NCBI GenBank assembly: GCA_012838585.1
Contig: DUPB01000152.1
Coordinates: 1 to 53,729, forward strand
Reading direction: 5' to 3'
From: Bacteroidales bacterium
GTDB taxonomy: Bacteria > Bacteroidota > Bacteroidia > Bacteroidales > Dysgonomonadaceae
Length of the DNA: 53,729 nt
Position 1 is the first letter of the stretch, and each line of letters begins with the position of its first letter. The notes below the pieces were generated by a model. The model was not told the DNA's origin, made no database searches, and saw only the letters and a list, made by a program, of their open reading frames with translations. Both the position numbers and the translations under genes were made by a program. Positions 5,143-37,883 of the stretch are shown here, in pieces.

Positions 5143-5174
5143 ACGATTATTTTACTCTTTTAATTTCGGTGTAT
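5140..5174 (-). repeat. Recurring leader, copy D (DUF1080 gene)
   Basis: A 35-base A-rich leader that ends exactly at the ATG of the DUF1080 gene. Read on plus it starts CATACGATTATTTTA and ends TTTCGGTGTAT. It matches the leaders at 10084, 34603 and 49478 with a few substitutions and a 2-base deletion. It lies in the intergenic gap, just overlapping the ATG. Confidence 0.75.
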
Positions 5175-5177
5175 AAA

Positions 5178-6431: not shown

Positions 6432-6550
6432 CGTTAAATAGATTAATGTTTTCCGTTATAAAACTTTATTTTATTATTGATTCTCGTTGGCTCGTTTGGC
6501 GTATGAAAGCAGCTTCCTTACATGGGGTTGCCGTTTCGCATCGCGCTCTA

Positions 6551-7927: not shown

Positions 7928-7952
7928 TTGGTTGTATGTTTATATTGTATTG

Positions 7953-8909
7953 TTAAAAATAGGCGATCATTTGATCCATCTGTTCGGAAATCTTCTTCAG
8001 GTGATTCCGATCGCCGCCCGGTACCTCTACGGTGAGCCATCCCCCGGTATGGTTGACTTCCCGTAAGGCTTGCATCACTACCGGCCAGTTGCAATCCCCT
8101 TGCATCAGCTCCACGTTGAACCCTTCCCATAGGCCTTTCGAGTTCATGCGCTCACGGCTGAACTCCTTCGCGTGCAGCTTCATGATACGTCTGTTGAGCG
8201 TTCTGATCCAGTGCTCGGGCCAGCCGTAACGAAGGATGTTGCCCACGTCGAAATACCAGCCCACCAACGGGTGGTTGATCTCGTCGACGTACCGTTTGGC
8301 CTCCACGGGGCTGATCAGGAAGTTGCTCCACACGTTCTCCAGCCCGATTTGCATGCCGGTCTCTTCCGCGTGGGGGATTAGCTCCCGGATAGCCTGTTGA
8401 GAGTTGATGTAGGCCTGTTCGTATGAGACCTTCTCGTTCACCACACCAGGTACCACGAGTACGGTGTCTCCACCCAGCTCTTTCACCTGCTTGAGCGATA
8501 GGGCGACAGATTCAATGCACTTTTTCCGTACTTCCGGGTCGGGATCGGATAACGGGACACTCCAGTGGTCCCTGTTACAGACCGTGGGGAACTCGATGCC
8601 CGATTTCTCTTTCGCGTCGAGGAGTTCTGTCATAGGGATGTCTACAGGGGCATTGAGTTCCACCCCGTGGAACCCGAGGTCTACCACCAGTTTTAACTTG
8701 TCGACGAGCGGCAGCTCTTCGTTGATCATGCCATAGCCGAGGCTTTTCTTTAACGTGGCTTTCTGGCCGGCTTCTCCGTTTTCAATAGCACTTCCCTTTC
8801 CGCTTGGCGTGGGTCGGGCGAGGCTGCTTTTCACGGTGGCCGATAACGGGGTTAGCGCCGCAGCACCTGTGATCACGGCCGCGGATTTAATAAATTCTCG
8901 TTTGTTCAT
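7953..8909 (-). CDS. Exported sugar phosphate isomerase/epimerase-like (AP endonuclease family 2) TIM barrel
   Basis: A 318-residue protein with a twin-arginine-like leader (NKREFIKSAA) and a xylose-isomerase-like TIM barrel. Metal-binding positions typical of the family are visible: Glu in QIGLENVWSN, Asp in GWYFDVGN, His in IMKLHAKEF and Glu in WLTVEVPGG. In characterised 3-keto-glycoside gene sets of Bacteroides (BT2156-type) such proteins act on or cleave keto-glycosides rather than sugar phosphates, which agrees with export here. It is the first gene of the cassette that runs through two Gfo/Idh oxidoreductases to the DUF1080 hydrolase. The 190 bases in front hold a 6-bp palindrome (GATAGG-GTG-CCTATC, 8969-8983) that could be an operator. 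Confidence 0.85.
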   Translation of the reverse strand: MNKREFIKSAAVITGAAALTPLSATVKSSLARPTPSGKGSAIENGEAGQKATLKKSLGYGMINEELPLVDKLKLVVDLGFHGVELNAPVDIPMTELLDAKEKSGIEFPTVCNRDHWSVPLSDPDPEVRKKCIESVALSLKQVKELGGDTVLVVPGVVNEKVSYEQAYINSQQAIRELIPHAEETGMQIGLENVWSNFLISPVEAKRYVDEINHPLVGWYFDVGNILRYGWPEHWIRTLNRRIMKLHAKEFSRERMNSKGLWEGFNVELMQGDCNWPVVMQALREVNHTGGWLTVEVPGGDRNHLKKISEQMDQMIAYF

Positions 8910-13110: not shown

Positions 13111-14970
13111 TTAGTTGTTCACGTCTGGTAGGGGTAGCCATGTGCAAATGTGTGATCCCTCCCAGCAGTTCACGGAGGCGTAATCTACCATGCGTATGTT
13201 GCCGTTTGTGGTAGGCACGATAAACTCCATGCGGGCATCGGAACGGGAGGGTGTTGTTTTGGTCACTTTCACCACGCCACGTTTGTTGGCTTTAATTTTT
13301 ACAGGCTGATTGTACGCGGGATCGATGTTCTCATCGCGCGCCAACACGATGGGTCCCCAGGTTACCGCCTGATAGTTTTCGCTGCCTTCGGTGCTTCCCT
13401 TGGGTGCGTCTATCAACCTGGCAATCATTTCAAACTCAATATCGATGCGGTCACCGGCTTTCCATTCACGCTCGATAACGGCGTATTGTCCCGGCACCAC
13501 TTTCAGCCTTTTACCGTTCACCCTTACCCTGTTTTTTTGGCTCCATTCGGGTATCCTTACCTGCACGGCAAACTTTTCAGCTTTTTCGGGATTCACATGA
13601 ATGATTATTTTTCCCGACTGAGGAAAGTCGGTCTCGATCTTTAATCCTAAGGCTTCTCCATTCGGTGTAGTGGTATTTACATCCGCCGCATTGAAGAGGT
13701 TGATAACCGGTCCCCGCTCAGAGTTGGTAACCGCGATAAGCGGGATATGCGCTAAACCTATCGGGCCACTCAGGTTACAGCAAGTAACGAGCAGACCATC
13801 GAACCCACGTCCCCAACCTTTGGCGTCCACTTTCTGCCCGTTGAGCAGGTTCGAGTAACTGAACCCGTCCCCGGTGGGTTTCATAGCTCCCAGCAAACCG
13901 TTGTAAATGTACCTTTCAATTTGGTCTGCCGGGGCAGATTCCCCTGTTAAGCGCATCAAATGGTTGCAATACTTCATCCATGTAACGCCCACGCAGGTCT
14001 CCATCATTCGCTTGATGTTCGGGTTGGTTTGCTCAACAGCGGTTTTAGTCCATGCCTCCCCGTTCACTTTGGGATAGTAGGGCTGGTCGGCTCCACCACT
14101 ACCGATGATGGTCATCTCTTGGGTGCGCACGCTGTTGTAATAGTTGTCCAGCATCTGCTTTACTTCCTGCTTTCCGGTTGCGCGGTAGTACTTTACCAAT
14201 CCCTCGAACAGCGAAGTAATCTCGTATGCTTTGGGGTAGGTTCCTGCCATTTTGTATGGTTCAACGTTGTTGTAGGCATTCTCGAACAGGTCGTGATTTT
14301 TCGCTCCTCCTGCTTCAATAACATAAGCGGCGAAATCGAGGTATCGCTGGTAGCCTGTCATCTGGTAGAGTCGCATCATCGGCTCGAGGATGGTGCTCGA
14401 TTCGATTTTCTCAGAGCTCCATCCCATTTGATTGATGGGCGATTTTGGGGCCGGGCCAACCTGGTCAATGATACAATCTCCCTGGCGAATAAGGCTTTCC
14501 AAAACAGCCGGATCGGGGTTTACCCAATCGTAATAATCCATCAGTCCCAGCATCACGTACTTCCGCTCCCAAATATCGCCGGTGGCACTTTCGGGTTGCT
14601 TTTCTACAGGCGAACAACTAATACTACCGTTCGGATGCTCGGTAGAGAGCAAATCCTTAACGGTTTCATCCAATATTGTTTTCAATTCCGGGTCTTGTGT
14701 ATAACGATAGAACAAGCTTGCCGAGCGGGCTGCTTTGCCCCACATCTCACCTAGCGCGAACTGGGTTCTTCCCGTGCGAAACAAGTTGACAAAAGTGGCG
14801 TAGGGGAGTACCCCTTTATTCCAGTTAACTATGGAGTTTTGTATATCGCTTTCCAAGCCCCCATGGAATTTTATGGAGTTTGGTTCTAATAGAAACTGTT
14901 GGTCTTTTACCTGTGAAAACAGGGTTACCGATAGGGTAAGGAGTAAAATAAGTAAACTGTTTCGCTGCAT
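13111..14970 (-). CDS. Beta-L-arabinofuranosidase-type hydrolase, GH127/DUF1680
   Basis: A 619-residue secreted (alpha/alpha)6-barrel enzyme (signal peptide to about LFSQ, residue 20). The zinc/thiolate site that defines GH127 and its relatives is intact: E324-x-C326 in METCVGVTWMKY and the adjacent cysteines C397-C398 in LVTCCNLSGP, corresponding to Glu338, Cys340, Cys417 and Cys418 of HypBA1, where Cys417 is the nucleophile. The N-terminal segment and the C-terminal beta-sandwich also match. The family removes beta-L-arabinofuranosyl units; related families (GH142, GH146) have other furanoside targets, so the exact sugar is not certain. It is the last gene of the ARH/PHP block (62-base gap) and is followed by a hairpin. 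Confidence 0.9.
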   Translation of the reverse strand: MQRNSLLILLLTLSVTLFSQVKDQQFLLEPNSIKFHGGLESDIQNSIVNWNKGVLPYATFVNLFRTGRTQFALGEMWGKAARSASLFYRYTQDPELKTILDETVKDLLSTEHPNGSISCSPVEKQPESATGDIWERKYVMLGLMDYYDWVNPDPAVLESLIRQGDCIIDQVGPAPKSPINQMGWSSEKIESSTILEPMMRLYQMTGYQRYLDFAAYVIEAGGAKNHDLFENAYNNVEPYKMAGTYPKAYEITSLFEGLVKYYRATGKQEVKQMLDNYYNSVRTQEMTIIGSGGADQPYYPKVNGEAWTKTAVEQTNPNIKRMMETCVGVTWMKYCNHLMRLTGESAPADQIERYIYNGLLGAMKPTGDGFSYSNLLNGQKVDAKGWGRGFDGLLVTCCNLSGPIGLAHIPLIAVTNSERGPVINLFNAADVNTTTPNGEALGLKIETDFPQSGKIIIHVNPEKAEKFAVQVRIPEWSQKNRVRVNGKRLKVVPGQYAVIEREWKAGDRIDIEFEMIARLIDAPKGSTEGSENYQAVTWGPIVLARDENIDPAYNQPVKIKANKRGVVKVTKTTPSRSDARMEFIVPTTNGNIRMVDYASVNCWEGSHICTWLPLPDVNN

Positions 14971-15032
14971 AACTTTTATTAAATGTATTGAAAATAGTAA
15001 GTGGGCAAGGCATTATGGATGTGGGTGCGGCT

Positions 15033-16724
15033 TTAGAGCTGTTCTACGCGTATATCGTTCCAATATCCGGCTTCCCATGACCATCCATTCGCTTTGTTCT
15101 CCAGGTCTATTTTCACGTTGTTGTTCCCGGCAAAGGGGGTTAGGTCGAAAAGAACCTCCAGCCATCCATCCTCGTTCACGCTATCTTTCCCGATCGTCAC
15201 CTCTTTCTGTACAGATCCGTTGACCCGTATAACCAGTACCCAGTCGCCCTTATCATGGTGCGATACCTCCGCCTTGAGGCGTGTTTGTTTACCGGCGGGA
15301 ATATCTATCACCTTTGTCAGCACGCAAGGCATCCCCCGGGTCAAAGGGTGTGTAAGAAGCACGTTCTTTTTCCCTTTGTAGGTCTCGCGTAGTCCCGGCT
15401 GCATATCGGACCCGCAATAAGCGATGGTCCATCCAGGGAAGCGTTTATCCAGGTCGCCCTGTATATCTACCAAAGCCAAATGTCTGATTTGGGCCATCTC
15501 CTCCGCCGTGAAAAGGGAGTTGGCTATCGGTTCCGGATCCCAGCTAAATACTAACGAACTGGGGACGGGTACTTTAACGGGAATCACAAACAGCTCTTCT
15601 CCATTTGAATCGGCTTCGATGCGTCCACCTTGTTGCACAATATATTCTCTGGCAAGTTTTTCGCACACGTTAAGCAATTCCGGAAAATTGTAAGGTGTAT
15701 GAGAGAACTTGGTTTCCTCATCGAGGTTTTCTTTGAATCGATCGGGCAGATTAGACGTACCCATGGTAGTAAACAATACGCCGGCCGCGTTCGAGGGGTT
15801 GCAATCGGAATCTTGTCCGCAACGGGTAGAGATGATGATGGTCTGCTCTATATCTTTTTTCCCGTAGAGCATACCGATAAGCACGTAAGCCCCATTGATT
15901 TTCACGTCGATGCCGCCATTTGACTTCTTTTGGTACTCGGGGTCGTTTCGGTACTTCTCCTGGCACAACTGCCAGGTGGCTTCCCAGTCGCTTGGGTTAG
16001 CCTTATACCATGCAACCACGTCGCGTACCATCTCGGCGTATTGGCATCCCGCGGGGATACAGGCTAACCCGGCATCGATGATCTTCAGGATGTCGTCCTC
16101 GAAAAAGGCTTCGCTATACATGCCGCCGATAAATTGTCCCGCGTACATGCCATCGCTGTAGTTCATCAGTCGCCCGAATTTTTCACCCAGGGCGATGGGT
16201 ACGTTGGGCATGCCAGGGGCGATAAGTCCGGAATAGTCGGCTTCTATCTGGTAGTCAATATCGTGGGGGTTGTTATTGAACGCCGGGTGGCTGCAGTCTG
16301 GTGGGGCTATTCCCAAGCGCAGGTTGCGCCGGCCAGCCTCGTTGGCGCACCACAAGGGGTACTCCGTGTTCGCGAAGTCGATGCCCGCTTGCCGGATGGA
16401 GACGTCCAGCCCATGCTCCTCCAGGGAGCGCAGGAAGGTCATCTCCACGTAAAGATCGTCTTGGTTAAACGCCTCGTTGATTAACTCGTTCCTCCATGTT
16501 GGCATCTCCTCCAGCGGCATGATTTCATCCTTCCATTTGAACTCGGTAGGGGCAGCCCAGCTAACCCCCACTATCTGGCCGAGCCAGCCGGCTTTTAATT
16601 TGTCACGATACTCTTTCACGGGCAGTTTTCTATATTCCACGGTATCCTTTTTCCCTTGACCGGTGCATCCCGCCAAGCTCAAAGCAAAGACAATAACTGC
16701 AATTTTTAAAGTTGTTTTTACCAT
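15033..16724 (-). CDS. ADP-ribosylglycohydrolase (ARH)-fold lipoprotein with C-terminal beta-sandwich
   Basis: A lipoprotein of 563 residues. The start is placed at ATG 16724 (MVKTTLKIAVIVFALSLAGC), because this gives a clean signal peptide with lipobox LAGC; the longer frame to 16814 adds 30 unlikely residues. The ARH domain (about 35-390) has the metal-binding acidic motifs QDDLYVEMTF and CGQDSDCNPSNAAG, equivalent to the DD and DxD sites of DraG/ARH enzymes. The C-terminal about 150 residues are beta-rich and end in WSWEAGYWNDIRVEQL, a galactose-binding-like sandwich. ARH enzymes hydrolyse N- or O-ribosyl bonds, but here export and PUL context argue for a glycosidase-type role on a furanoside. 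It is paralogous to the gene at 17994. Confidence 0.85.
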   Translation of the reverse strand: MVKTTLKIAVIVFALSLAGCTGQGKKDTVEYRKLPVKEYRDKLKAGWLGQIVGVSWAAPTEFKWKDEIMPLEEMPTWRNELINEAFNQDDLYVEMTFLRSLEEHGLDVSIRQAGIDFANTEYPLWCANEAGRRNLRLGIAPPDCSHPAFNNNPHDIDYQIEADYSGLIAPGMPNVPIALGEKFGRLMNYSDGMYAGQFIGGMYSEAFFEDDILKIIDAGLACIPAGCQYAEMVRDVVAWYKANPSDWEATWQLCQEKYRNDPEYQKKSNGGIDVKINGAYVLIGMLYGKKDIEQTIIISTRCGQDSDCNPSNAAGVLFTTMGTSNLPDRFKENLDEETKFSHTPYNFPELLNVCEKLAREYIVQQGGRIEADSNGEELFVIPVKVPVPSSLVFSWDPEPIANSLFTAEEMAQIRHLALVDIQGDLDKRFPGWTIAYCGSDMQPGLRETYKGKKNVLLTHPLTRGMPCVLTKVIDIPAGKQTRLKAEVSHHDKGDWVLVIRVNGSVQKEVTIGKDSVNEDGWLEVLFDLTPFAGNNNVKIDLENKANGWSWEAGYWNDIRVEQL

Positions 16725-16822
16725 TTTCAAGTGAATCATTCTTTCATTAAAGGAGAATACTATTGTTTCTAAAAAAGCGAGATATCCAAAGGAGAGAAGG
16801 GTAGAAAAAACCAATCACTTTC

Positions 16823-17902
16823 TTACCACAATTTCAATGTGACATTTTTATCCTTCCCGTATAGGCAGTTCAGGAATTCAACGTCAGATCCTTTATCGAT
16901 TTTAACGCGCAACACATGTTGCGGATATAGTGGTCTCGCGTACATGTATCCGCCACACTTCACCTCATAAGAGATGTCGCTGTTATTGATAATCTCAATC
17001 GTTCCATTTTTCTCGTTGATCACCCTAGTCGAGATGGAAGCTTCTATAAGGGACTTCAACAGCTCTTCAGCCCCTGACAAAGTATGGTTGTAGAGTGCCA
17101 GGGTCCTGCCAGCGAACAACGCCTCCTTGACCCCTTCTTCGCTGTACTCTGCCGCGAATACCAGGGTCATCGGGCGTGCTAACTTCCCCCGGTAGAGGTT
17201 GGCGCTGGTGTAGTGGATATCGGAGTTGGCTATGGGAGCCAGGTTGTACTCTTTACACCAGTCGATGACTTTTGGGTAAGCCTCCCAGCCATTGAACAGC
17301 TCAACGCCGTGGATTTTCTTTTTCGCGATCAACTCCTCGTGGATAGGGTATACCGTGCTTTTATCATCCGGCCACCCGGGGTGATTCCACAAGATAAAGC
17401 CACCCTGCTTGAGGGCCTCGTCGATGGCTTCGAGCGGGTCGGGTAGGTCCAGCTTGTTCGCGTCTTGAATAAAGAGGGCGTTCAAGTGGCCCAGGGGTTT
17501 CTGGCGGGTGATTTCCGCCCCTTTAATTACCACCATTCCGATGGCATCCCCCTGCGCCTTGGCTATTTCGTAGGATTTGTTGTGGTCGCTAATCAGTATC
17601 TCCTTGTTGGGGCGGACTTCAATGTGATCGGTGATGGCGATCACGTCCAAACCCTCGTTCCACGCCTCTTTGACCCGCTGGTCCGGCCACACCTTTCCAT
17701 CGGAGAAGACGGTATGCACGTGGAAGTCGCATTTCAGCGTTTTATACCCCCCGATATCGGGTATCCTGATGTTGTATCTATAATCTTGTGCATTGAGGTT
17801 CGGGTATTCGTAAACCTCATCGTTTTGAATCTGGGCGATACCGTGGGTAAACAGGCCAAGAAACAGGCAAGTGAAAATGAAAGGAAGAATTTTACTGTTC
17901 AT
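16823..17902 (-). CDS. Secreted PHP-domain phosphodiesterase (Sb-PDE-like)
   Basis: A 359-residue secreted protein (signal peptide to about GIAQ, residue 24). The PHP metal centre is clear: CDFHVHTVFSDG with HVH at 61-63, AITDHIE at 89-95, ILWNHPGWPDD near 175, and the NSDIHY block near 227. PHP enzymes are trinuclear-metal phosphoesterases. The C-terminal beta domain (YMYARPLYPQHVLRVKI) resembles that of the Sb-PDE phosphodiesterase group; this subgroup call is from memory. It lies between two ARH-fold genes (91 and 98 bases away), suggesting that the imported substrate has phosphodiester or phosphomonoester groups, or that the fold has been adapted to another hydrolysis. Confidence 0.85.
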   Translation of the reverse strand: MNSKILPFIFTCLFLGLFTHGIAQIQNDEVYEYPNLNAQDYRYNIRIPDIGGYKTLKCDFHVHTVFSDGKVWPDQRVKEAWNEGLDVIAITDHIEVRPNKEILISDHNKSYEIAKAQGDAIGMVVIKGAEITRQKPLGHLNALFIQDANKLDLPDPLEAIDEALKQGGFILWNHPGWPDDKSTVYPIHEELIAKKKIHGVELFNGWEAYPKVIDWCKEYNLAPIANSDIHYTSANLYRGKLARPMTLVFAAEYSEEGVKEALFAGRTLALYNHTLSGAEELLKSLIEASISTRVINEKNGTIEIINNSDISYEVKCGGYMYARPLYPQHVLRVKIDKGSDVEFLNCLYGKDKNVTLKLW

Positions 17903-17932
17903 ATGTTTAGTTATGCTATTTATTGATTTTTC

Positions 17933-17980
17933 GCATGTTACTGTTTTCGCTCTGAAAGCGTGAAACAGTAAACTACATGC
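17933..17980. repeat. 48-base extragenic palindrome
   Basis: Between the second ARH gene and the PHP gene lies an interrupted inverted repeat: GCATGT, TACTGTTT, CGCT, five-base loop CTGAA, AGCG, AAACAGTA, ACATGC, with only small bulges. There is no T-tract after it on minus, so it is not a classical terminator. Its right half recurs at 10253-10290, so it looks like a REP-type element, an RNA processing or attenuation hairpin, or a dyad operator. Confidence 0.7.
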
Positions 17981-17993
17981 AAAAGTTAAAAAG

Positions 17994-19541
17994 TTAATAA
18001 TAGACCACTTTTCCCGGTTTCTTCTTGGAGTAGACGATCACGTCGTTCGCCTCCACCCGGTAGCCGTTGGGAATGGCTTTCGCTTTCAGGGTGATGCTGT
18101 TCTCCCCCTCTTTCAGGTCGTAGTTCCAGGTGATGTCATGTCGTCTGACACGGTTGTTCGTGGGGATTTTCGCCACTTCGTACAGTTCATCGTTGATGTA
18201 GACCTCAATTTCGAAGACCTCATCGGGCAGCCTGCTGTTTTTTATCGCCCTGCCAGTCAAAACGAATCCCGAACCTTGGATGTTGAACGACGCTTCCAGG
18301 TTATTGCTGTTCATATGGGCGCCAATCCTTCTTCTCTCGACCGGGTAGAGCCCTTCAAAGCTTTTTTCGTAGGGAACAGGTTTGGGTTCCTGGTACTTGA
18401 TGGTGAAGGTATCGCCGTTTAGTTTACCACCTTTTTTCACGATCATTTCGCTCGCGTGGCGGAAACCGGTTTCGTACACCTTGTTGAGAGACATTTCGAT
18501 ATGCGCGAAGTTCAGATCTTCCACCTTGTCCAGTCCCTGCTTCCAATAGGCCGGTATCTTGTCGTAGCCGATCATCGTTCCCAGTATTCCAGCCGCGTTG
18601 GCCGGGTTGCAGTCCGAGTCGTACCCGCACCGCGTGCTGATATCGATGGTCGCCCCGTAGTCGCCCTTGCCGTAAAGCAGTCCAATCACGATGTAGGCAC
18701 CGTTGATGGTGGCATCGATGTTGAAGGGTTTGAAGACCCCATCCGGGCAACCGATATCTGCCGTCCACTTCTTTTGCGCTTCGAACCATGCTTTCTTCCA
18801 GTCGTTCGGGTCTTCGCGGTAGCACTGTATCACGTCGGCGATACACTGGTAGTAGTTGCTCTTCTTCGGGATCGTTTTTAAGGCCTCTTCCACGATGAAT
18901 TCGATGTCATCATGCACGAAGGCCAGCGCGTACATGGCTGCCACGTAGATACCGCCGTACACACCATCGCCGTAATTCATGATATGGCCAATCCTCCAGC
19001 CGATCTCTGATGCGGAGTTGACCATCCCCGGGGACATCAGCCCCGCGAAGTCGGCCTCGATCTGGAAATCGATGTCATCGGCGTGCGGGTTGTTTTTCCA
19101 GTGCCCCGATTCTGGCGGCATGATACCGTTCAGGATATTGTAACGGGCTGCCTGGTTGGCGTGCCATAGCGGGTAACCCGCGTTGGCAAAGTATTGCGCG
19201 TGCAACGAGTCGGGCGCGTCCAGCCCGTGCTTGTCAAATACCTGCACGAATGTCAGGTCCATGTAGACATCGTCGTATAACCCCGGTGAGTTTTCGTAGT
19301 ACCAGAGCATCCGCGTGTCGTCCCACGGGATGGGAACCTCGTCGCCGATCATCGTCCCGTTCCATACGAATTCCGTGGGTCCGCCGTAGGTGCATCCAAT
19401 CACCTGGCCTGCCCACCCTCCTTTAATTTTATCCAGCAGTTCACCTTTGCTGATGCTGTATTCTGTTGCAGGCGTGTTGCCTTTGTTGCACGACAAAAGG
19501 ATGATCGCGCCCAAGCAAATAATAGTTGTTACTTTTCGCAT
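17994..19541 (-). CDS. ADP-ribosylglycohydrolase (ARH)-fold lipoprotein
   Basis: A 515-residue lipoprotein (MRKVTTIICLGAIILLSC, lipid-modified Cys18). The ARH domain (about 28-370) has LYDDVYMDLTF (DD at 90-91), ADDIDFQIEADF, and CGYDSDCNPANAAG, matching the metal-binding acidic positions of the family. The last about 130 residues are a beta-sandwich rich in Asn, Glu and Val. The overall architecture and many blocks (GPTEFxW, NGAYxxIGxLYGK, STRCGxDSDCNPxNAAG) are shared with the protein at 15033, so the two arose by duplication. It sits 63 bases after the DUF4998 gene, across a strong hairpin, and starts the ARH-PHP-ARH-GH127 block. Extracellular or periplasmic site of action is predicted; the substrate is unknown. 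Confidence 0.88.
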   Translation of the reverse strand: MRKVTTIICLGAIILLSCNKGNTPATEYSISKGELLDKIKGGWAGQVIGCTYGGPTEFVWNGTMIGDEVPIPWDDTRMLWYYENSPGLYDDVYMDLTFVQVFDKHGLDAPDSLHAQYFANAGYPLWHANQAARYNILNGIMPPESGHWKNNPHADDIDFQIEADFAGLMSPGMVNSASEIGWRIGHIMNYGDGVYGGIYVAAMYALAFVHDDIEFIVEEALKTIPKKSNYYQCIADVIQCYREDPNDWKKAWFEAQKKWTADIGCPDGVFKPFNIDATINGAYIVIGLLYGKGDYGATIDISTRCGYDSDCNPANAAGILGTMIGYDKIPAYWKQGLDKVEDLNFAHIEMSLNKVYETGFRHASEMIVKKGGKLNGDTFTIKYQEPKPVPYEKSFEGLYPVERRRIGAHMNSNNLEASFNIQGSGFVLTGRAIKNSRLPDEVFEIEVYINDELYEVAKIPTNNRVRRHDITWNYDLKEGENSITLKAKAIPNGYRVEANDVIVYSKKKPGKVVYY

Positions 19542-19558
19542 TTATATAAGGAATAAAT

Positions 19559-19588
19559 AACGTGAGTTCTTTATATCGAACTCACGTT
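19559..19588 (-). terminator. Terminator or attenuator inside the PUL
   Basis: A perfect 11-bp stem AACGTGAGTTC / GAACTCACGTT with an 8-base loop lies between the DUF4998 gene and the ARH gene. On minus it is followed by the U-rich TTATTTATTCC. It would let the SusC-SusD-binding-protein part be made in excess over the enzyme part. Confidence 0.7.
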
Positions 19589-19604
19589 AAGTTAATTAAA
19601 TGTT

Positions 19605-20801
19605 TTACTCTGCATCTGCATCGTATCCATAGAACTCTATTTCCCATAGGTCAATCCATCCGCTGCCTGATCGGGAGTTTTTCCACACTATGGCAAAATA
19701 CTGGAAGTTCTGCATTTCCGACCATGTTCTTGTCCATGTGGCTGTACCAAACCAAAAGGTTGTTGATAGCCAATTGCCTTTGGCGATGGCATCGGCAAAC
19801 CCGGGGGAGTTCGCGTAATCGCCTCCCGCGTTGGGGTCAAACGGCACGTTGCCCCAGTACATCTCCACGCTGTTCGCGAAGCGCCTGTTGTAGGTGAACT
19901 GATCCTGGTACAAGGAGACCTTGTTGATGTAGTAGGAGTCTTTTTGCGCATCTATCACCATTATTTTCGGGAAAACAGCCGCTAGCGCTCCTTGTGCGCT
20001 CACCCACCGGTTATCTCTGTTGATAATGCCATCCACCACTTCCGAGGGCATAAAGCTGCTACTCCATATCTGTCCATCGGTCACTGTAACGTTCCACGAC
20101 TTGCAGTCTAACAATCCGGCAATAGCCGTAGGTGATCTGATCCAGTCGTTCCAGATGGTATCCAGGCCATCGGTAGGACAATAGCTGGAGCTAAATTGAA
20201 ACCTCCTTCCGGTCGCTGCATCGGGGAACGATACTTTATTGTTGTTCACGTCCATTGTCTCGTCCAGTTCAACAATATCGCCATTTTTGTCGATGTATCT
20301 GAATCGGGTGGCTATCATCTCATCGGTGCCGAAGCTCATCACCACCTCCGCGGACGATCCTACAATCTCTGCCGATACAACGGTGCGTTCGGCGTGCGTT
20401 AAGAGCCAGTTCTCCGCGTAGGGTGACACGGTAATCTCCGTGGGCATTGACTGGTTGCCTTTGGAATCGAAGTTGATCAACTCAAACGTGTAAGACCTCT
20501 CTTCCAGTTTGTCGATGATAATCTCGATCTTGTTGCCGGTGAAAGACGCGTAGTTAATCTCCTTAACCTCGGCCTTGTTGTTCCAATAGACCTTGGCCGA
20601 AGTGACCGACGGGTCTTTGGGCGCTTTCCACACGAGCTTCACGCGCTTGTAACCCCTGAATGCTTTCAAGTCATTGGTCATCTCGGGGTAAACGTATCCA
20701 CCTTTCTTGACGAATTCCATGTAGATGTCATCTTGGTTTTTACATGAACTCACGCAAACTGCCACAAGGAAAGCTATCAGTAAATATGCATTTTTCTTCA
20801 T
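19605..20801 (-). CDS. DUF4998 domain lipoprotein, probable surface glycan-binding protein
   Basis: A 398-residue lipoprotein. I prefer ATG at 20801 (MKKNAYLLIAFLVAVCVSSC) to the GTG at 20828 or ATG at 20822, because it gives a normal signal peptide with lipobox VSSC. The N-terminal half (GYVYPEMTNDLKAFRGYKRV, KLVWKAPKDPSVTSAKVYW) matches the DUF4998 domain found in proteins encoded beside SusD. The C-terminal half (about 240-398) is discoidin-like, with aromatic residues and the closing strand GWIDLWEIEFYGYD. Such proteins commonly act as surface glycan-binding proteins next to SusC/SusD; for this one that is inference. It starts 32 bases after the DUF4959 gene and ends just before a terminator. 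Confidence 0.82.
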   Translation of the reverse strand: MKKNAYLLIAFLVAVCVSSCKNQDDIYMEFVKKGGYVYPEMTNDLKAFRGYKRVKLVWKAPKDPSVTSAKVYWNNKAEVKEINYASFTGNKIEIIIDKLEERSYTFELINFDSKGNQSMPTEITVSPYAENWLLTHAERTVVSAEIVGSSAEVVMSFGTDEMIATRFRYIDKNGDIVELDETMDVNNNKVSFPDAATGRRFQFSSSYCPTDGLDTIWNDWIRSPTAIAGLLDCKSWNVTVTDGQIWSSSFMPSEVVDGIINRDNRWVSAQGALAAVFPKIMVIDAQKDSYYINKVSLYQDQFTYNRRFANSVEMYWGNVPFDPNAGGDYANSPGFADAIAKGNWLSTTFWFGTATWTRTWSEMQNFQYFAIVWKNSRSGSGWIDLWEIEFYGYDADAE

Positions 20802-20833
20802 ACTGCTCAATGTTTTAATCATGCTCACGTTAC

Positions 20834-22123
20834 TTATCTATACTCTTCCAAGATCTGCCCGAAGGGGGTGATCTCTCCCAGTTGCACTTGTCCCACCTTG
20901 GCTTTGGTTTCCCAAGTGGCAAAGGTGTTGATAATCACTACCCGCAGGTACCGCAGTTCGTCGTGGGCGTTTTCATACAGGGTGTTGTCCATTTCGAATT
21001 CGGTGCCGATATTGAATATCTCGCGGTCTTCGGGTGTCCATGTGGGGGGAACAGACCCGTCCGGGTTGTAACCGGATGGTCTGGGCTGTTCGAAATAGCC
21101 CAGCTTGAACCAGCTGTCGTCAAATCCATGCTCATTCCCCGGCACCACCTGGCCAGTTGGCGCTAAACTACCCCAGAACTCGTATTCGCGGGGGTGGGCT
21201 CCGGTCCAGATGTTGTAATCGATTCGGGCCATTTTGGCGATGCGGCTAATTTTGGCGCGAACCCCTAAATCGATGGTAAGCCACTGGGGCATTGGGTTGC
21301 TCCCGTCACTCGCGTAAAAGTGGGGGATGGCAGAGACGCCTGAATCGTCCCATAAAGAGTGGATGGGATAGTAGGAGGAGTTGGTTGAGTAGGAGTTGTC
21401 GTCCCCCGGGTTGAAGTATCTAAATTTCTTTTTGTCGAGCCTCGATTCCTCCAACGGGGTCAACACCTTACTTATCATATCGGACTTGTTACCCCACCTA
21501 TCGCGGATGTAAACCCCGAATAGGGTCTCAACGCTCTCTAGTCCACGGCGAGCCAAGTAGATATCCTCGGCAGCCGTGAAGAGGGTGGTTACCTCGACCC
21601 ATCTCTTAGACTCTTCGGGAGCATTGATATTGGAGACATTTTTGTCAGCCAGCAAGCAGACCGCCAAGTCCGCGTTCGTGGTGTTGTTCATGATGTGAAT
21701 TTTAACGCCGCCAAAAGCCTCCTCGATGTCAAACTCCACGGTTTGCACGGCGGGCGGCAACGGGTTGATGGTGACCTTTACCGGTGTTGACCGTACCTCG
21801 TTCACGTTAAACGAGCTTACCTCCACATCCCGCGGTTGGGTGTCGGCGTAGCCAACAACGATCAAACTATCAAGGTAGCGCGATATTTTCGTGTTCACTA
21901 TCTCCCCGTTTCGTTCATAAGTAGCCACGATACCCTTTATGTTGTCATCGTTGGGTATCTTTACCTTGATCACGGCACCACCGGGAATACCAATCACCTC
22001 GGTGACCTCGGCCGGTTTGGGCACGGGTATCTTGTCGTCAATCTGATCAATTCGCCCGGCTTCATCACAGCTAAAGGATAGCCAAGCGAAGAGCAACACG
22101 CAACAATATATTAACTTTTTCAT
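20834..22123 (-). CDS. DUF4959/DUF5126/DUF5000 lipoprotein, probable surface glycan-binding protein
   Basis: A 429-residue lipoprotein (MKKLIYCCVLLFAWLSFSC). The order of domains fits the DUF4959 (about 20-120, VTEVIGIPGGAVIKVKIP), DUF5126 (about 125-235) and DUF5000 (about 260-429) arrangement seen in SusE/F-position proteins of many Bacteroidota PULs. The last domain is discoidin-like with conserved Trp and Tyr residues (WLTIDLGVRAKISRIAKM, EYEFWGS). It follows SusD by 27 bases and precedes the DUF4998 gene. It probably holds the glycan at the cell surface for the SusC/D complex; no binding specificity can be read from sequence. Confidence 0.85.
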   Translation of the reverse strand: MKKLIYCCVLLFAWLSFSCDEAGRIDQIDDKIPVPKPAEVTEVIGIPGGAVIKVKIPNDDNIKGIVATYERNGEIVNTKISRYLDSLIVVGYADTQPRDVEVSSFNVNEVRSTPVKVTINPLPPAVQTVEFDIEEAFGGVKIHIMNNTTNADLAVCLLADKNVSNINAPEESKRWVEVTTLFTAAEDIYLARRGLESVETLFGVYIRDRWGNKSDMISKVLTPLEESRLDKKKFRYFNPGDDNSYSTNSSYYPIHSLWDDSGVSAIPHFYASDGSNPMPQWLTIDLGVRAKISRIAKMARIDYNIWTGAHPREYEFWGSLAPTGQVVPGNEHGFDDSWFKLGYFEQPRPSGYNPDGSVPPTWTPEDREIFNIGTEFEMDNTLYENAHDELRYLRVVIINTFATWETKAKVGQVQLGEITPFGQILEEYR

Positions 22124-22150
22124 GTTCAGTCGTTTTATTTCATTATACCA

Positions 22151-24118
22151 TTACCATCCCAAGTTCTGTATGAGGTTTGGGTTTCTTTCAATCGTGCCCG
22201 TTTGGATGGGCCAAAAGTAGTTCTTCTGCGCGAAGGGCTGTTCGGCGATTAATATTTTCGTGTAGTACTCTTCCGGGTTGGGTGCGATTACCCTAAAGCC
22301 GTAGATGTTCTTCGCGTACTCGCTGCTTGCCTCTTTCCAGCGTCGCAGGTCCCAGAAGCGTTGGCTCTCGAAGGCAAGTTCGTTCAGCCTCTCCCGGTGG
22401 ATGATCTCGCGCATACCCGCTTTGCTGTTGTATCTCCCGGGGGAGGTGCTATGTTGGTCCCAAGAGGTCTTCACATCGGGGATACCCGCGCGTTCGCGTA
22501 CGGCATTGATGTGTTCAAACATCTCCGCGCTGTGCGCACCACTTGGTCCCTCGGCTTCATTGATGGCCTCCGCGTAAAGTAGGTAGAGGTCGGCCAGGCG
22601 AATCATGGGCCATGGGTACCAGTAGGTTGACAAGGCACTCCCATCGGCGCTCATGCGATTTCGGTAGGGGTACATCTTTTTGGGATAGTACCCTGTAACG
22701 GGACCCGACTCGCTACTGCTCTTCGCCAGGGCTTTACCCATGCGGTTTTCAATGGTGTAAATGTCCTTGGGTTGCAGGTCGTTATAGCTGGTCAGAGAGC
22801 CGACCCACTTACCGCCATCAAAGCCCAGGAAAGCGTAGAAGCGCGGCTCGCGTTCGAAATTCAGTTGAATGGTCGTGTATCCCTGTTCTATGTAGTAGGA
22901 GTGTGCTGCATCGCCATCGCGTAGCGCGTATTCATCCTTCCCTAACCTCTCCCTATCGAAGTTAAGGGGGAGTCCGTTGCTCGTGTAGAACTGTTCCGCG
23001 ATTTTCAACGGGACGCCGATAAAGGCGTAGCAACTCAAGGCATGCCTCCAGCCCAAGTCCTTGTACTGCAGGTTTGGACCCGTAAGTTGCTGCCACATGG
23101 ATAATTGCGTCCAGTTGCTTTGGGTGTTGCCCCAGATGATCTCCTCGTTCCACCGGTCGCACATCATGCCGCGCAGCGTGAAGTCGAGGTAGAGGGTGTC
23201 GTTCACCCGGTACTCATGGTCGTATTCGTACAGTTGTATATTGGCAAGTTTGGCAAGATCGATGGCCTCTTTACACGCTACTACGGCATCTTCCCACCGT
23301 TTTTGTTGTTCCGCTTCCGATTTATCCTGCGGGAACAGCTGTATGCCTCGAGCGTCTACTAGGGGTGCTTGATCCACGTTGTTGTTAAACAGGGGGCTGG
23401 CCGCGTAGACCGATACGCGGGCTTTGAGTGAAGCCGCGATGACTTGGTTTGTCCTTCCATACTCATCTACGGATGGATTCACCTGGGGGAGGTCCGGTAT
23501 GGCCTCATCCAGCAGTTCGATGACGTAGTCAAAGCAATCGTCGATGGGGTCACGGTAAACGCGTACCTGTTCAACGTCGGCATCGATAGGTAAGCTCTCT
23601 CTCACGATAGGTATCGGTCCCCATTTGCGGATCAGGTTAAAGTGAAAGTAAGCCTTGAGAAACTTCGCTTCGGCTTTCCATTGCTTTTTTTCCCACTCTT
23701 GCATGTCCGGAACTTGATCCACGTTTTCGATCAATATATCGCAACAGCGGATTCCCTGGTACATGTAGGCCCAGTCGTTGGCGTACACCGTTGTGGCGCT
23801 CTGTAGCCCCCTCGCGATTTGGAACATGCTACTGGGTACACGCCCTGCTGTGTTGGTGACCCTTCGTCCTACAAGGTCCCACAGTTCGTCGCCTCCCAGC
23901 AGCGCGGGGTCGTATCCCGAAGTGCCCTCTTCCGTCATGTAGGAGTAGCAGGTGCCTAGGTAGCGTATGGCGGTAGAGCGCAGGTTGAATGCCGTCTCGA
24001 TAGTTGCCATCCCATCATCGGGCACCACGTCCAGGTACTCGTTGCAAGCCGTCAGCCCGATAGTCAACGCGAGCGCGGCCAATTTAATTTTTTTGATGAT
24101 ATCTGTTCGCTTATTCAT
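22151..24118 (-). CDS. susD-like: SusD/RagB family nutrient-uptake outer membrane lipoprotein
   Basis: A 655-residue SusD-type lipoprotein (lipobox LTAC, Cys25), the substrate-capturing lid over the SusC transporter on the outer surface. Tetratricopeptide-like helices (about 85-330) carry the conserved KAEAKFLKAYFHFNLIRKWG block, and the C-terminal region has the typical WPMIRLADLYLLYAEAINEA and RLNELAFESQRFWDLRRW motifs, followed by a closing WPIQTGTIERNPNLIQNLGW. It starts 8 bases after SusC, as expected for a coupled pair. Members of this length are common; sugar specificity is not predictable. Confidence 0.95.
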   Translation of the reverse strand: MNKRTDIIKKIKLAALALTIGLTACNEYLDVVPDDGMATIETAFNLRSTAIRYLGTCYSYMTEEGTSGYDPALLGGDELWDLVGRRVTNTAGRVPSSMFQIARGLQSATTVYANDWAYMYQGIRCCDILIENVDQVPDMQEWEKKQWKAEAKFLKAYFHFNLIRKWGPIPIVRESLPIDADVEQVRVYRDPIDDCFDYVIELLDEAIPDLPQVNPSVDEYGRTNQVIAASLKARVSVYAASPLFNNNVDQAPLVDARGIQLFPQDKSEAEQQKRWEDAVVACKEAIDLAKLANIQLYEYDHEYRVNDTLYLDFTLRGMMCDRWNEEIIWGNTQSNWTQLSMWQQLTGPNLQYKDLGWRHALSCYAFIGVPLKIAEQFYTSNGLPLNFDRERLGKDEYALRDGDAAHSYYIEQGYTTIQLNFEREPRFYAFLGFDGGKWVGSLTSYNDLQPKDIYTIENRMGKALAKSSSESGPVTGYYPKKMYPYRNRMSADGSALSTYWYPWPMIRLADLYLLYAEAINEAEGPSGAHSAEMFEHINAVRERAGIPDVKTSWDQHSTSPGRYNSKAGMREIIHRERLNELAFESQRFWDLRRWKEASSEYAKNIYGFRVIAPNPEEYYTKILIAEQPFAQKNYFWPIQTGTIERNPNLIQNLGW

Positions 24119-24126
24119 AGTCCTAT

Positions 24127-27100
24127 TTATTTAAACGTTACGTTCAAACCCACGTTGATTGTTCTCTGGATGGGATAATTGAGTCCCGAGCTTCCCATTT
24201 CCGGGTCCCACATCTTAAAGTTACTCCAGCTAAACAGGTTTCTTCCCGACAGGTAGATGCGGAAATTGGAGAGATGCATCATTTTGGTGAGTTTTTCTGG
24301 GAAGGTGTACCCTAGTTCAACTTGTTTCAGGCGGAGGAACGACCCGTCTCTCATCCACCAGGTGCTGACGGGCGTGTTGTTGCGGTTGGTGTACGCGCTG
24401 TAGCGGGGCCAGAACGCGTAGATGTCGCGGTTGTCTTCGCTCCAATGGCTCTCATCGATACTTTTCAATAGCTGGGTGTCGCCAACGAACGGCGACATGT
24501 CTACCGCGTCAATCCAGAATGATTCGTTCGCCAGACCTTGGAAGAACACGGATGCATCGATACCCTTGTAGCCGGTAGAGATTCCAAACCCGTAGATGAT
24601 TTCAGGGGTAGTGGGGTTACCAATGGGTACCCTATCGGCTTCAGTGATCACACCATCTTGGTTCACATCGGTATACTTGATGTCCCCACCTCCGTATTGA
24701 GAACCAAACGCGGCTTGAGAGGGGCTGTTGGCTGCTTCTTCGTCATCGATAAAGAGCCGCTCGGCTATAAATCCCCACCTTTGCTTGATGGAGTAGCCTT
24801 TGTGGTGGCGCCAGTACTCTTTGTATTCCGGCTCCTCGTACACCTCATATCGGCTGGTGGAGTAGGTGAAGTTCGCACGGGCGGAGGTCCAAAAATCCTT
24901 GTTCCACGCGTGCTTGTAATCCGCTTGTATATCCACACCTTTTGCCGATGCTTCTCCAATGTTGGCCGAGATGGGGGCTTGCAGCCCCATCGTGTTTGTG
25001 ATGTCGGCACGGGTCATGAAGATATCGGAACGGGCTTCAGTAAAATATTCGGCGATGATGTCAACCTTATTGAACAGGCCAAGTTCAAGAGCGTAGTTCG
25101 TTTTCAGTGATTTCTCCCATGTGATGGCATCGTTCGCGTAACGTCTCACAGAGATTCCCGAGGAGGATACTCCCCGGTTCTCTCCAAAGTAGGATGTCCT
25201 GTTAGCATCCGTCATGATCATTTCCGACAGGTAGTAGAAGCGGTTGGTCGCGGAGCCTATGTTGTCGTTACCTACCAGCCCGTAGGAGTAACGGAGCTTG
25301 AGGTTGCTGACCACCTTGTTAAGCGGTTCAAAGAAGTTCTCTCTTGAGACAACCCACGCGAGGCCAAACGAGGGGAAGAAACCCCAGCGGTGATTCTTTG
25401 AGAAGCGTTCCGAGCCGTTGTAACCGAAGTTGAATTCTGAAAAGTACTTGCCATCCCACCCGTAGGTGAAGCGACCCGCCAGTCCCGCGTTTCGCGAGGG
25501 GAGTGAGAGCTGAAGGGATCCCGCGTTTGCCGTCAACTGTTCTCGAACCGTGAATACCATCAGTCCGCTCACGTTGCTTCGGCCAAAATCGCGCATCCAG
25601 TTTAACCGGCTTTCGGAGTACATGGTGCTAATCACGTTCTTTCCACCCTCGTTGTAGGTTAGGTAATCGGTGCCATTTTCATTCAAACGGGTAATCTTGT
25701 ATTCACCCGTGTAGGAGTCGTAGTGGTCTAACGCGTACCAGTAGGGTCTAAAAGTCCTGGAAATGGTGAAGTCCGAATAACGGGTCAGGTTAAATAGCGT
25801 CATGAAGTTTAATCCTTCAGTGATGAAGTCGAGCTTTTGGTTTAGTTCCACCGCGGCGATCATCTGTGAACGGTTCCAGTCTTTGTAACCCCTCACCATT
25901 TCCGCGTATGGGTTAATGTAACCACCATCGCCATAGTTTCCAAACAGGATGTGCTTGATGCCGATGTGGTCATCATCAATGGGGTAATAGGCGGGGAACA
26001 GCACGGGATCGGAGTGTAGCACTTGCCAGTAAACCGCGCTCCCCCCGTTTAGCGGGCCGGTGTAATCATCGAAGTTGCCCGTCAATCGAACGGCTAACCT
26101 GGTGTTTTTACCGGTGTTGATATCGATGTTGGAGCGGAGCGTGTAGTTCTTGGCATCAATGTTGTTGTTGAACGAGTTGCGCCTATCGACCTTCAAAATT
26201 CCCGTGTCGTGCATGAAGGCGCCGGAGACGTAGTAGGTTGCCACTTTCCCTCCCCCGCGAATCGAGATGTTGACGCGATTGCTGTTCGCGTAATCTTTAA
26301 ACAGCATTTTGTGCCAGTCGTTGCTTGGGTATATCAAGCGATTCGCATTGGGTTTGCCCGTCTGTTCAATCTTGTCGTAGCTATACATCAAGTCACCCAG
26401 CGGGTCGCGGGTGGTGATGGCCTCGTTGTAAGATTTCATATAGGTAACCGGGTCGGCCAATTCAATGTTTTGCGTGGGAGCCGAGATGGAGGTCTCCAAG
26501 CGGGCGAATATTTTGGCGGACCCTTCTTGGCCCCGCTTCGTTGTCACGTGAATCACGCCGTTTGCCCCGCGAGCCCCGTAGAGGGCGGTGGCGGTAGCGT
26601 CTTTCATGATGGAGAAGCTTTCGATGTCATCCGGCTGCAAACGTGCCAGGTCGGTACTTGTCAGCTCGATGTTGTCAATCAGGATCAGTGGGTTGGTGTT
26701 CGCGCCAAAGGTGGTGATGCCGCGAACGAAGAAGTCCGCGTTATCTTGACCCGGCTCGCCGGATCGCTGGTAGGCGATAACCCCTGCCACGTTCCCCGCC
26801 AGTGCTGTTGTCAAGTTGCTGGAGGGAACTTTCAGGTCGCCTGGGCTAACGGTGGTGATAGCACCGATCACGCTCTCTTTCTTCTGCCTCCCGAAAGCCA
26901 CGATCGTTACCTCTTCCAACTCGCTGGTCGCGGGCAACAACGCTACTTCGATGAAGGTCTTGTCACCAACGGCTACCGTTTGGGAAGTCATACCCAAAAA
27001 CGAAAAGGTGAGTTTGTCTGTAGTGTTGACTTTGATTTCAAATGTTCCATCAATGTCGGTTGATACACCCCTGGGTGTATTCTCGACCACGATACTCACC

Positions 27101-27240
27101 CCTGGTAGGGGCTCTCCCGTCTCTTGTTCAATTACTCGCCCCTTAACGGTAACCTGTTGTGCAAGCAGGTGTAGGGGAGCAATGAACAAGAAAAAGGTGA
27201 GGTACAAAACAAGGTTGCGTTTTTTTCTCATTTCATTCAT
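24127..27240 (-). CDS. susC-like: SusC/RagA family TonB-dependent outer membrane transporter
   Basis: A 1037-residue TonB-linked transporter. The ATG at 27240 (MNEMRKKRNLVLYL) is chosen over a TTG at 27255; ATG at 27231 is also possible. After the signal peptide comes a carboxypeptidase-regulatory-like domain (about 30-105, VTVKGRVIEQETGEPLPGVS), a TonB-box-like EEVTIVAFG, the plug with the LYGARGANGVIHVTTKRG block (about 225-243), and a beta-barrel ending in an aromatic residue (GLNVTFK). It imports the oligosaccharide into the periplasm using TonB energy. It is the first gene of the central PUL with a promoter about 150 bases upstream. No sigma/anti-sigma pair or hybrid two-component sensor is in the window. 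Confidence 0.95.
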   Translation of the reverse strand: MNEMRKKRNLVLYLTFFLFIAPLHLLAQQVTVKGRVIEQETGEPLPGVSIVVENTPRGVSTDIDGTFEIKVNTTDKLTFSFLGMTSQTVAVGDKTFIEVALLPATSELEEVTIVAFGRQKKESVIGAITTVSPGDLKVPSSNLTTALAGNVAGVIAYQRSGEPGQDNADFFVRGITTFGANTNPLILIDNIELTSTDLARLQPDDIESFSIMKDATATALYGARGANGVIHVTTKRGQEGSAKIFARLETSISAPTQNIELADPVTYMKSYNEAITTRDPLGDLMYSYDKIEQTGKPNANRLIYPSNDWHKMLFKDYANSNRVNISIRGGGKVATYYVSGAFMHDTGILKVDRRNSFNNNIDAKNYTLRSNIDINTGKNTRLAVRLTGNFDDYTGPLNGGSAVYWQVLHSDPVLFPAYYPIDDDHIGIKHILFGNYGDGGYINPYAEMVRGYKDWNRSQMIAAVELNQKLDFITEGLNFMTLFNLTRYSDFTISRTFRPYWYALDHYDSYTGEYKITRLNENGTDYLTYNEGGKNVISTMYSESRLNWMRDFGRSNVSGLMVFTVREQLTANAGSLQLSLPSRNAGLAGRFTYGWDGKYFSEFNFGYNGSERFSKNHRWGFFPSFGLAWVVSRENFFEPLNKVVSNLKLRYSYGLVGNDNIGSATNRFYYLSEMIMTDANRTSYFGENRGVSSSGISVRRYANDAITWEKSLKTNYALELGLFNKVDIIAEYFTEARSDIFMTRADITNTMGLQAPISANIGEASAKGVDIQADYKHAWNKDFWTSARANFTYSTSRYEVYEEPEYKEYWRHHKGYSIKQRWGFIAERLFIDDEEAANSPSQAAFGSQYGGGDIKYTDVNQDGVITEADRVPIGNPTTPEIIYGFGISTGYKGIDASVFFQGLANESFWIDAVDMSPFVGDTQLLKSIDESHWSEDNRDIYAFWPRYSAYTNRNNTPVSTWWMRDGSFLRLKQVELGYTFPEKLTKMMHLSNFRIYLSGRNLFSWSNFKMWDPEMGSSGLNYPIQRTINVGLNVTFK

Positions 27241-27393
27241 TTTTTCAAGTTGCAATGTGTCAATAAATGGTCTGTATTATTGTGTTTCCGTGTAAAACCT
27301 GATCGAGTGTCCTATAATTCAAGTTATTCGTGTGATCCATGCCTTGGTTTACCCTCCGGCAGGAAAAATGCCCCTATTCAAACTATTTTTTTG

Positions 27394-37137: not shown

Positions 37138-37883
37138 CTTTTGGCTTGCAGTTTCTTCCCCTTGGCATTGATGCTCTCTTTCACCGACACGTTTGTCGAT
37201 GCCTTGTCCGCCTTCACCTCGTTGCCCGCGGTGTCCATGTAGGCCTTTTCGAGGGTGACGTCGTGGCAGTTAGTGATGACCATGCCCCGGCTGTCGGGTA
37301 CTGTCCGGCTCTCTACCGTAATGCCGCGGATGGTCACCCCCTTGCAGTTAGAGTAGCGCTGCACGTCCCCGCAGGCGTTCCTCAGGATGATTCCCTCCAG
37401 GTTGACGTTGTTGCACCGGTTGAAGTGAATCAGTGCCGGTTTGTTTTGCAACTCACTCTCCGGCAGGTAGCCTTTCTCCACTTGGTCGGTGAGGCTCTTC
37501 AATACCCCTTGCCCATTCCCTTCGATCACCCCTTTGCCGGTGATGCTAATGTTCACCATGCTGTCTGCCAGGATAAGTGCCGGGATGGCGTTCACGCGAA
37601 AGTAGTCATAAATCGAAGGAAATGCAACCAGTACGGCGCCTTCATGCAGTTGGATGGTGACGTTGGACTTCAGGTGGAAGCTACCGGTGAGGTAACGTCC
37701 CACGTGGAAGTTGAGTTGACCGCCCCCGTTGGCGCTGATGTAATCGATGGCGTACTGGATGGATGCCGTGTTCAGGGTGACACCGTCTGATTTGATGTCG
37801 AACAGGGATGCTGGGTAGTCTTTCGCGGAGAGGTGACAAAGGGTCATCAGCGCCAGCAGTGTAACAGCTATTTTTTTCTTCAT
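37134..37883 (-). CDS. Truncated GH28-like beta-helix protein lacking catalytic residues
   Basis: A 249-residue secreted protein (ATG at 37883, MKKKIAVTLLALMTLCHLSA; a start at 37928 is less likely). It aligns along its whole length with the first half of the two neighbours at 38017 and 39517 (SIQYAIDYI, GRYLTGSFHLKSNVTI, NISITGKGVIEGNG, GITLRN-like), but where they have NNDGLDIVDC and DAADDAICFKS it has DSRGMVITNC and DTAGNEVKADK, so all the acidic catalytic residues are lost. It then ends with a basic tail (KGKKLQAKR) about 225 residues early. There is no frameshift or stop inside the retained part, and the gene is coupled to GH92 by an ATGA overlap, so it looks kept as a binding or scaffold protein rather than decaying. 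Confidence 0.85.
   Translation of the reverse strand: MKKKIAVTLLALMTLCHLSAKDYPASLFDIKSDGVTLNTASIQYAIDYISANGGGQLNFHVGRYLTGSFHLKSNVTIQLHEGAVLVAFPSIYDYFRVNAIPALILADSMVNISITGKGVIEGNGQGVLKSLTDQVEKGYLPESELQNKPALIHFNRCNNVNLEGIILRNACGDVQRYSNCKGVTIRGITVESRTVPDSRGMVITNCHDVTLEKAYMDTAGNEVKADKASTNVSVKESINAKGKKLQAKR

Follow-up and report, generated by a model that had tools for sequence, protein, structure and literature searches.

Glowacki et al. 2020 reportedly described diverse ribose systems, some of which probably include ADP-ribosylglycohydrolases (ARHs). In Bacteroides thetaiotaomicron, the ribose polysaccharide utilization locus (PUL) BT2803-2809, or rus, comprises a putative ribose transporter, RusT, according to the accessible text of two papers (PMC12596196, PMC12548429), and excerpts of a third list a ribokinase, a TonB-dependent receptor, SusD, DUF4969, a nucleoside hydrolase, and a DMT transporter permease as members of the BT2804 locus (PMC10434189); the accessible part of PMC11697453 cites the ribose-utilization paper and nothing more. 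Here, we describe a PUL with 2 apparently exported ARHs on a stretch of 53,729 nucleotides from a Bacteroidales bacterium of the Dysgonomonadaceae (contig DUPB01000152.1 of assembly GCA_012838585.1), which is called the window throughout and refers to the whole stretch that was analyzed. Comparison with relatives suggests that this locus belongs to the known ribose-scavenging systems as a variant and is not a glycan system of an entirely new kind, because in Bacteroidota the same ARH family often lies beside ribokinases, a transporter, nucleoside hydrolases, and LacI-type regulators. We give a probability of about 0.65 to the reading that it is a ribose-utilization-type PUL in which the ARHs would act as ribosidases and which is devoid of a ribokinase and transporter of its own.

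The PUL consists of 8 tightly packed genes that are all encoded on the minus strand, with a content and order that a preliminary description of the window had proposed and that Pfam and NCBIfam searches confirmed:

24127..27255, minus strand: SusC/RagA TonB-dependent transporter (TIGR04056, 973 bits)
22151..24118, minus strand: SusD-like lipoprotein (Pfam SusD_RagB, 1.6e-57)
20834..22123, minus strand: putative surface binding protein, DUF4959-DUF5126-DUF5000 (Pfam)
19605..20828, minus strand: putative surface binding protein, DUF4998 (Pfam)
17994..19541, minus strand: ARH1, an apparently exported ARH-fold protein with a C-terminal beta domain, proposed ribosidase (Pfam ADP_ribosyl_GH 2e-37, AlphaFold, Foldseek, invariant acids, neighborhoods with ribose genes)
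16823..17902, minus strand: PHP-fold metallohydrolase, apparently exported (Pfam PHP 2.6e-8; phmmer to 3e38_A, 3e-74)
15033..16814, minus strand: ARH2, the second ARH-fold protein (Pfam ADP_ribosyl_GH 2.8e-24; structure model; Foldseek matches to ARH3/DraG; paralogue on C173, another contig of this genome)
13111..14970, minus strand: GH127-family protein, proposed furanosidase (Pfam GH127 2.2e-32; E324-x-C326 and C397-C398; aligned to 5mqo_A)

Comparison with a related locus of Petrimonas sp. IBARAKI (L044) places the real start of ARH2 probably some 75-90 bases downstream of the TTG. As far as the accessible descriptions of rus go, the window resembles that system in its SusC/SusD pair and in the ribokinase, nucleoside hydrolase, and transporter found beside relatives of its ARHs, whereas the window copy itself is without these three, would have ARHs in the place of the ribosidase, and adds PHP and GH127. 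The transporter in question is likened to RusT by the make-up of the loci and not by homology to BT2809 itself.

The link between this ARH family and ribose genes emerged from a scan of named genomes that yielded 119 relatives of ARH1, the best 80 of which were taken for neighborhood counts. Neighborhoods, defined as lying within about 10 kb, were searched by tblastn and, separately, by clustering of open reading frames (ORFs) without preselected families, with clusters named from scanned representatives (several of them from L043, the C173 locus, outside the 80), from tblastn with the SusC/SusD of the window, or by inspection. By tblastn, a ribokinase and/or sugar transporter was found at 46 of the 80 loci (37 with both, 5 with the ribokinase only, and 4 with the transporter only). 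After the ARHs themselves, ORF clustering ranked ribokinase (41 loci), transporter (39), SusC (25), SusD (23), and nucleoside hydrolase (20) highest, followed further down by LacI (17), an esterase (12), and all else at 8 loci or fewer; when only the 37 loci with full flanks were considered, 25 contained a ribokinase, transporter, or nucleoside hydrolase by this method. All of these genes shared the strand of the nearest ARH (ribokinase 41/41, transporter 40/40, nucleoside hydrolase 21/21), and the 40 transporters compare with around 0.4 expected over the loci, which total 1.40 Mb, as calculated from 1 copy per 3.24 Mb in the window genome. Among 61 genomes, ARH1 and the transporter were each detected in 19 and both in 15, and in 12 of these 15 the two share a contig and are no more than about 12 kb apart; the other three are the window genome, G008, and G050.

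The identity of these neighbors was assessed with family models. Two scanned ribokinases pass TIGR02152 (319 and 337 versus a cut-off of 299.65) and miss the PRK11142 ribokinase model (295 and 312 versus 341), weak NCBIfam scores liken the transporter to RhaT/GlcU and Pfam places it in Ureide_permease/Sugar_transport, and the nucleoside hydrolases are IU_nuc_hydro proteins. The guess of a ribofuranosidic substrate in the preliminary description thus gains support in kind from this linkage to ribokinase, transporter, nucleoside hydrolase, and LacI genes, as judged from sequence.

Several points weigh against reading the locus as a ribose-utilization-type PUL. No ribokinase, transporter, or nucleoside hydrolase is among the genes of the window PUL, and GH127 and PHP are left unexplained by ribose; pectin-type GH28 and GH106 genes also lie elsewhere in the window. 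Neither ribokinase nor transporter was found by tblastn at 34 of the 80 loci, many of them short, and at 12 of the 37 full-flank loci ORF clustering detected none of the three genes (at one of the 12, L091, tblastn did find a ribokinase and transporter). The 80 loci are moreover not independent, because five Aquirufa-like loci are sisters and the transporters of L097 and L100 are nearly identical under two species names, and the Fisher test on the co-occurrence of ARH1 and the transporter (p 1.5e-7) ignores phylogeny. A link to ribose does not hold for every ARH close to uptake genes, given that Prevotella intermedia has an ARH-family gene, perhaps of another branch, in a hemin-uptake locus according to excerpts of PMC10434189. 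Beyond all of this, neighborhood alone is no proof of activity.

Two peculiarities of the surveyed ARH loci stand apart from these counts. Three tandem ARH genes are present in L097 (6401-11539) and in the similar L090, L092, L093, L095, L099, L101, L111, L117, and L123. The first gene of each triplet encodes a longer protein (about 640-705 residues) that keeps a TDD-like SDDDTD motif, has DxDNQ as last motif, and forms a third ARH subfamily. Furthermore, L097 (Bacteroides xylanisolvens XB1A) and L100 (Bacteroides pyogenes DSM 20611) have transporters with 99.7% identity and like-sized genes, which may point to contamination or mislabeling of one record or to recent transfer.

Loci in Bacteroides bear on what the ARHs may do. 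In the genus of B. xylanisolvens XB1A, 18 of 60 genomes have the transporter, at 20 places, 15 of which were examined (both places of the L097 type were omitted, as were three more). A ribokinase is encoded at 12 of these 15 loci, an ARH of the same family at 8, and a nucleoside hydrolase at 8, with the ARH alone at 7, the nucleoside hydrolase alone at 7, both at 1, and neither at 0; the ARH of L151 and the nucleoside hydrolases of L144, L145, and L156 are separated from the transporter or kinase by some 7-9 kb. Because these loci have either one and rarely both, ARH and nucleoside hydrolase seem to fill one slot. Two of the Bacteroides loci, L143 and L150, resemble rus: each has two ribokinase matches, one of them truncated where the stretch ends, along with SusC, a nucleoside hydrolase, and a transporter of the same family. 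Nucleoside hydrolases cleave beta-N-ribosides while ARHs cleave alpha-ribosyl bonds, so one would naturally predict alpha-ribofuranosides as substrates where a locus is of the ARH type.

The assignment of both proteins to the ARH fold was probed by structure prediction and comparison with ARH3 and DraG, as had been suggested in the preliminary description. ARH1 (515 residues, modeled from a 40-sequence alignment) gave a confident AlphaFold model with a mean predicted local distance difference test score (pLDDT) of 93.1, and Foldseek with this model returned 55 PDB chains at E up to 0.001, and almost all of the 50 listed among them represent ARH3, the PDB protein likewise named ARH1, DraG, or related entries, with ARH3 and DraG on top (probability 1.00 and target-normalized template modeling scores of 0.61-0.72 for the ten best). 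The model of ARH2 is weaker, with a pLDDT of 77.7 overall and higher values in the core, and recovered the same ARH3/DraG set. Both proteins share only around 10-17% identity with their structural matches, and phmmer searches with either single sequence against PDB sequences had no match at E up to 0.1, whereas profile searches did match. Viral ARH proteins match as well, which repeats the fold assignment and adds nothing to it.

Acidic residues are invariant in both proteins, namely E57, D90, D91, D308, and D310 of ARH1 in an alignment with 39 relatives and E91, D119, D120, D335, and D337 of ARH2 in an 18-row alignment of the ARH2, longer ARH, and ARH1 types. We take these residues to be the equivalents of the ARH3 metal ligands; PDB titles among the Foldseek matches of ARH1 name E41, D77, and D314 mutants. 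In a profile alignment to MJ1187, YDD of ARH1 falls over TDD and DSDC over DTDS, and ARH2 has QDD at the first of these places, so that neither protein keeps the TDD threonine and the Thr/Ser following the last D-x-D of classical ARHs is replaced in the window ARHs. The acids are therefore intact, as had been claimed, yet hydroxyl-bearing positions differ from classical ARHs. Export signals were seen again when the N termini were judged by eye, with hydrophobic stretches and the lipobox-like motifs LAGC in ARH2 and LLSC in ARH1. In summary, the window ARHs resemble ARH3 and DraG in fold and acidic metal residues but differ by their export signals, by the extra C-terminal beta domain of ARH1, and by the two replaced positions.

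This resemblance in fold and acidic site would also suit proteins that, once exported, keep true ADP-ribosyl hydrolase activity and serve to harvest ADP-ribose, NAD-derived material, or poly-ADP-ribose from dead cells, and both the nucleoside hydrolases that are frequent neighbors and a PHP protein that could act on nucleotides would have a place in such a pathway. We nevertheless regard this explanation as unlikely, since two positions differ, the TDD threonine and the one that follows the last D-x-D, and since a SusCD pair fits larger ligands. It overlaps with the reading as a ribose PUL, because a ribose system could have ADP-ribose material as its substrate.

Another ARH operon that may be compared is yegTUV of Escherichia coli, which presumably lacks SusCD. 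The accessible text of PMC10819704 describes a predicted ARH, YegU, whose operon also encodes a putative sugar kinase and a protein predicted to be a nucleoside symporter, which is similar to the loci described here, but links this operon to ADP-glucose and glycogen.

The genes that a ribose PUL would need and that the window lacks are found elsewhere in the same genome. Besides the two ARHs of the window, it encodes a third on contig C173 that is 73% identical to ARH2, and this contig also holds the sole copy of the transporter found in the genome (81% identity) as well as its sole strong ribokinase match (54%; a second match reaches just 26%), while ribokinase is absent from the whole window contig. 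The order on C173 is nucleoside hydrolase, ribokinase, transporter, ARH2 paralogue, SusC, and SusD, accompanied by a divergent LacI-type regulator gene whose product is nearest to RbsR but under its cut-off. In this assembly, the SusC gene (L043 5802-8980) is split over two reading frames near the N terminus, which may come from an assembly error or decay, and the locus is for this reason perhaps not whole.

Under the reading as a ribose-utilization-type PUL, SusC/SusD and the two binding proteins would capture and import a ribose-bearing compound, and ARH1 and ARH2, in the periplasm or on lipid anchors, would hydrolyze its ribofuranosidic bonds (probably alpha, by analogy with ARH enzymes) at their metal-dependent site. 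GH127 might remove another furanose and PHP an ester or phosphoester. Free ribose would then enter through the RhaT/GlcU-like transporter and be phosphorylated by ribokinase, both probably supplied from C173, where they are encoded beside the ARH2 paralogue.

Relatives of the window locus differ in how much of its gene order they share. The series SusC-SusD-DUF5000-DUF4998-ARH1 recurs in window order in L045, L046, and L086, with SusC proteins that are 82-83% identical to that of the window in L046 and L045 and 74% identical (partial) in L086. L086 has an extra ORF of 989 residues ahead of ARH1; in L046, a ribokinase and transporter follow directly after ARH1 and a LacI-type gene precedes. The order ARH1-PHP-ARH2-GH127 recurs in only 1 of the 80 loci, that of Petrimonas sp. 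IBARAKI, at 80-86% identity, with a ribokinase between PHP and ARH2, the transporter after GH127, and no SusCD match in the stretch examined. Since L044 aligns to the window over a GH31 gene, the phosphoesterase gene at 28625, ARH1-PHP, and ARH2-GH127, that is, on both sides of the ribokinase that the window lacks, the simplest reading is that an ancestral locus held both gene sets and each lineage lost one.

Between phosphoesterase and ribose-type locus, L044 also contains genes for a B12-binding protein and URO-D-family proteins (5019-8466). Cobamide ribosides, hinted at by these genes, were considered as substrate and set aside, as the genes are not in the window PUL.

The N termini of PHP and GH127 look signal-peptide-like by eye. 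PHP has its metal motif at H61, H63, D92, H93, E130, H139, H174, D228, and H230, positions that align with 3e38_A, in which one aspartate is a glutamate. Its best NCBIfam match, CehA/McbA metallohydrolase, scores 77.1 bits and falls below the cut-off of 80, so the earlier label of phosphodiesterase was not borne out. GH127 keeps E324-x-C326 and C397-C398, which we take to be a functional motif; its candidacy as an aceric acid hydrolase (NF049879) was rejected at 142.8 bits versus an equivalog cut-off of 950.

Neighbors of both types were surveyed in 100 loci (L024-L123). No PHP relative was found near an ARH among them except in L044. Strong matches to both PHP and ARH were found in 8 further genomes of the order, in all of which the two lie on different contigs, and among 39 genomes of the genus no listed PHP match outside the window genome is near an ARH; in G008 and G013, both are on one contig but more than 380 kb apart. 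On these results, PHP was rejected as a regular ARH partner. GH127 relatives are present in just 5 of the 100 loci (L037, L038, L042, L044, and L116) and, save for the cassette copy in L044, are only 24-28% identical, which makes GH127 an occasional rather than regular partner. With PHP-ARH linkage seen, among the loci and genomes surveyed, in the window and L044 alone, the PHP-ARH2-GH127 extension appears young or rare, whereas the link between ARH and ribose genes is the general feature.

These data bear on the idea, put forward in the preliminary description, of a dedicated PUL for a phosphate-bearing furanose glycan such as ribosyl-ribitol phosphate or teichoic-like polymers, with ARH1, ARH2, and GH127 as furanosidases and PHP as phosphodiesterase. 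ARH1, PHP, ARH2, and GH127 do occur together in two species (in L044 with one ribokinase among them), distant GH127 relatives are found in four more ARH loci, and the nearby genes at 9100 and 28625, noted earlier as phosphoesterases, are of calcineurin type by Pfam. Both of the latter genes lie outside the conserved cassette, with the one at 28625 also present in L044. We consider such a system quite improbable, because PHP lies near an ARH in a single one of the 100 loci and in none of the other genomes searched, its role as phosphodiesterase is putative, GH127 is an occasional partner, and members of the ARH family are commonly found in ribose-type loci that have no PHP.

The block at 1744-8909 of the window encodes a 3-keto-disaccharide hydrolase that also contains HEAT repeats, two Gfo/Idh oxidoreductases, and a TIM-barrel protein, and it resembles an oxidative 3-keto-glycoside pathway. 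It recurs at 65-90% identity downstream of an ARH1 orthologue in L042 and in parts in L038.

On the other side of the PUL, a second carbohydrate island (34768-53621) contains GH92 and GH106 genes, three similar genes of which the one scanned is GH28, and, by eye, another SusC/SusD pair, which suggests pectin use. Together with an alpha-L-fucosidase family gene in the window and the distant relationship of GH127 to aceric acid and arabinofuranose enzymes, these genes could point to a PUL for pectin side chains of the plant cell wall, with the ARH fold co-opted for arabinofuranose, apiose, or sugars like these. This is very unlikely in our view, as the GH28, GH106, GH92, and alpha-L-fucosidase genes lie outside the PUL, the aceric acid hydrolase score is far from its threshold (143 versus 950), and the ARH family tracks ribose genes. 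Within the island, at 41132-44272, an AbiEii-type nucleotidyltransferase toxin gene (Pfam) lies beside a gene for an AAA_14/DUF4143 ATPase and a possible AbiEi partner that has no Pfam match. This region is low in guanine and cytosine (38% versus about 52%) and is perhaps a mobile toxin-antitoxin or defense insert.

Returning to the ribose-utilization-type PUL, a bolder proposal would be that secreted ARHs are unrecognized ribofuranosidases, probably alpha-specific, that replace nucleoside hydrolases in ribose PULs and that, with PHP and GH127, open up a phosphate- and furanose-containing ribose glycan not known as bacterial food; we hold this to be doubtful. No paper assigning a substrate to ARH proteins in PULs was found among the matches listed in a literature search whose coverage leaves out most subscription papers.

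Proteins labeled as ADP-ribosylglycohydrolases recur in PULs of Bacteroidota. Their tie to ribokinase, sugar transporter, and nucleoside hydrolase genes turns this label into a concrete prediction, that is, the release of ribose, probably from alpha-ribofuranosides, for which the relatives in Petrimonas sp. IBARAKI, Proteiniphilum, and Bacteroides xylanisolvens would be suited as test cases.

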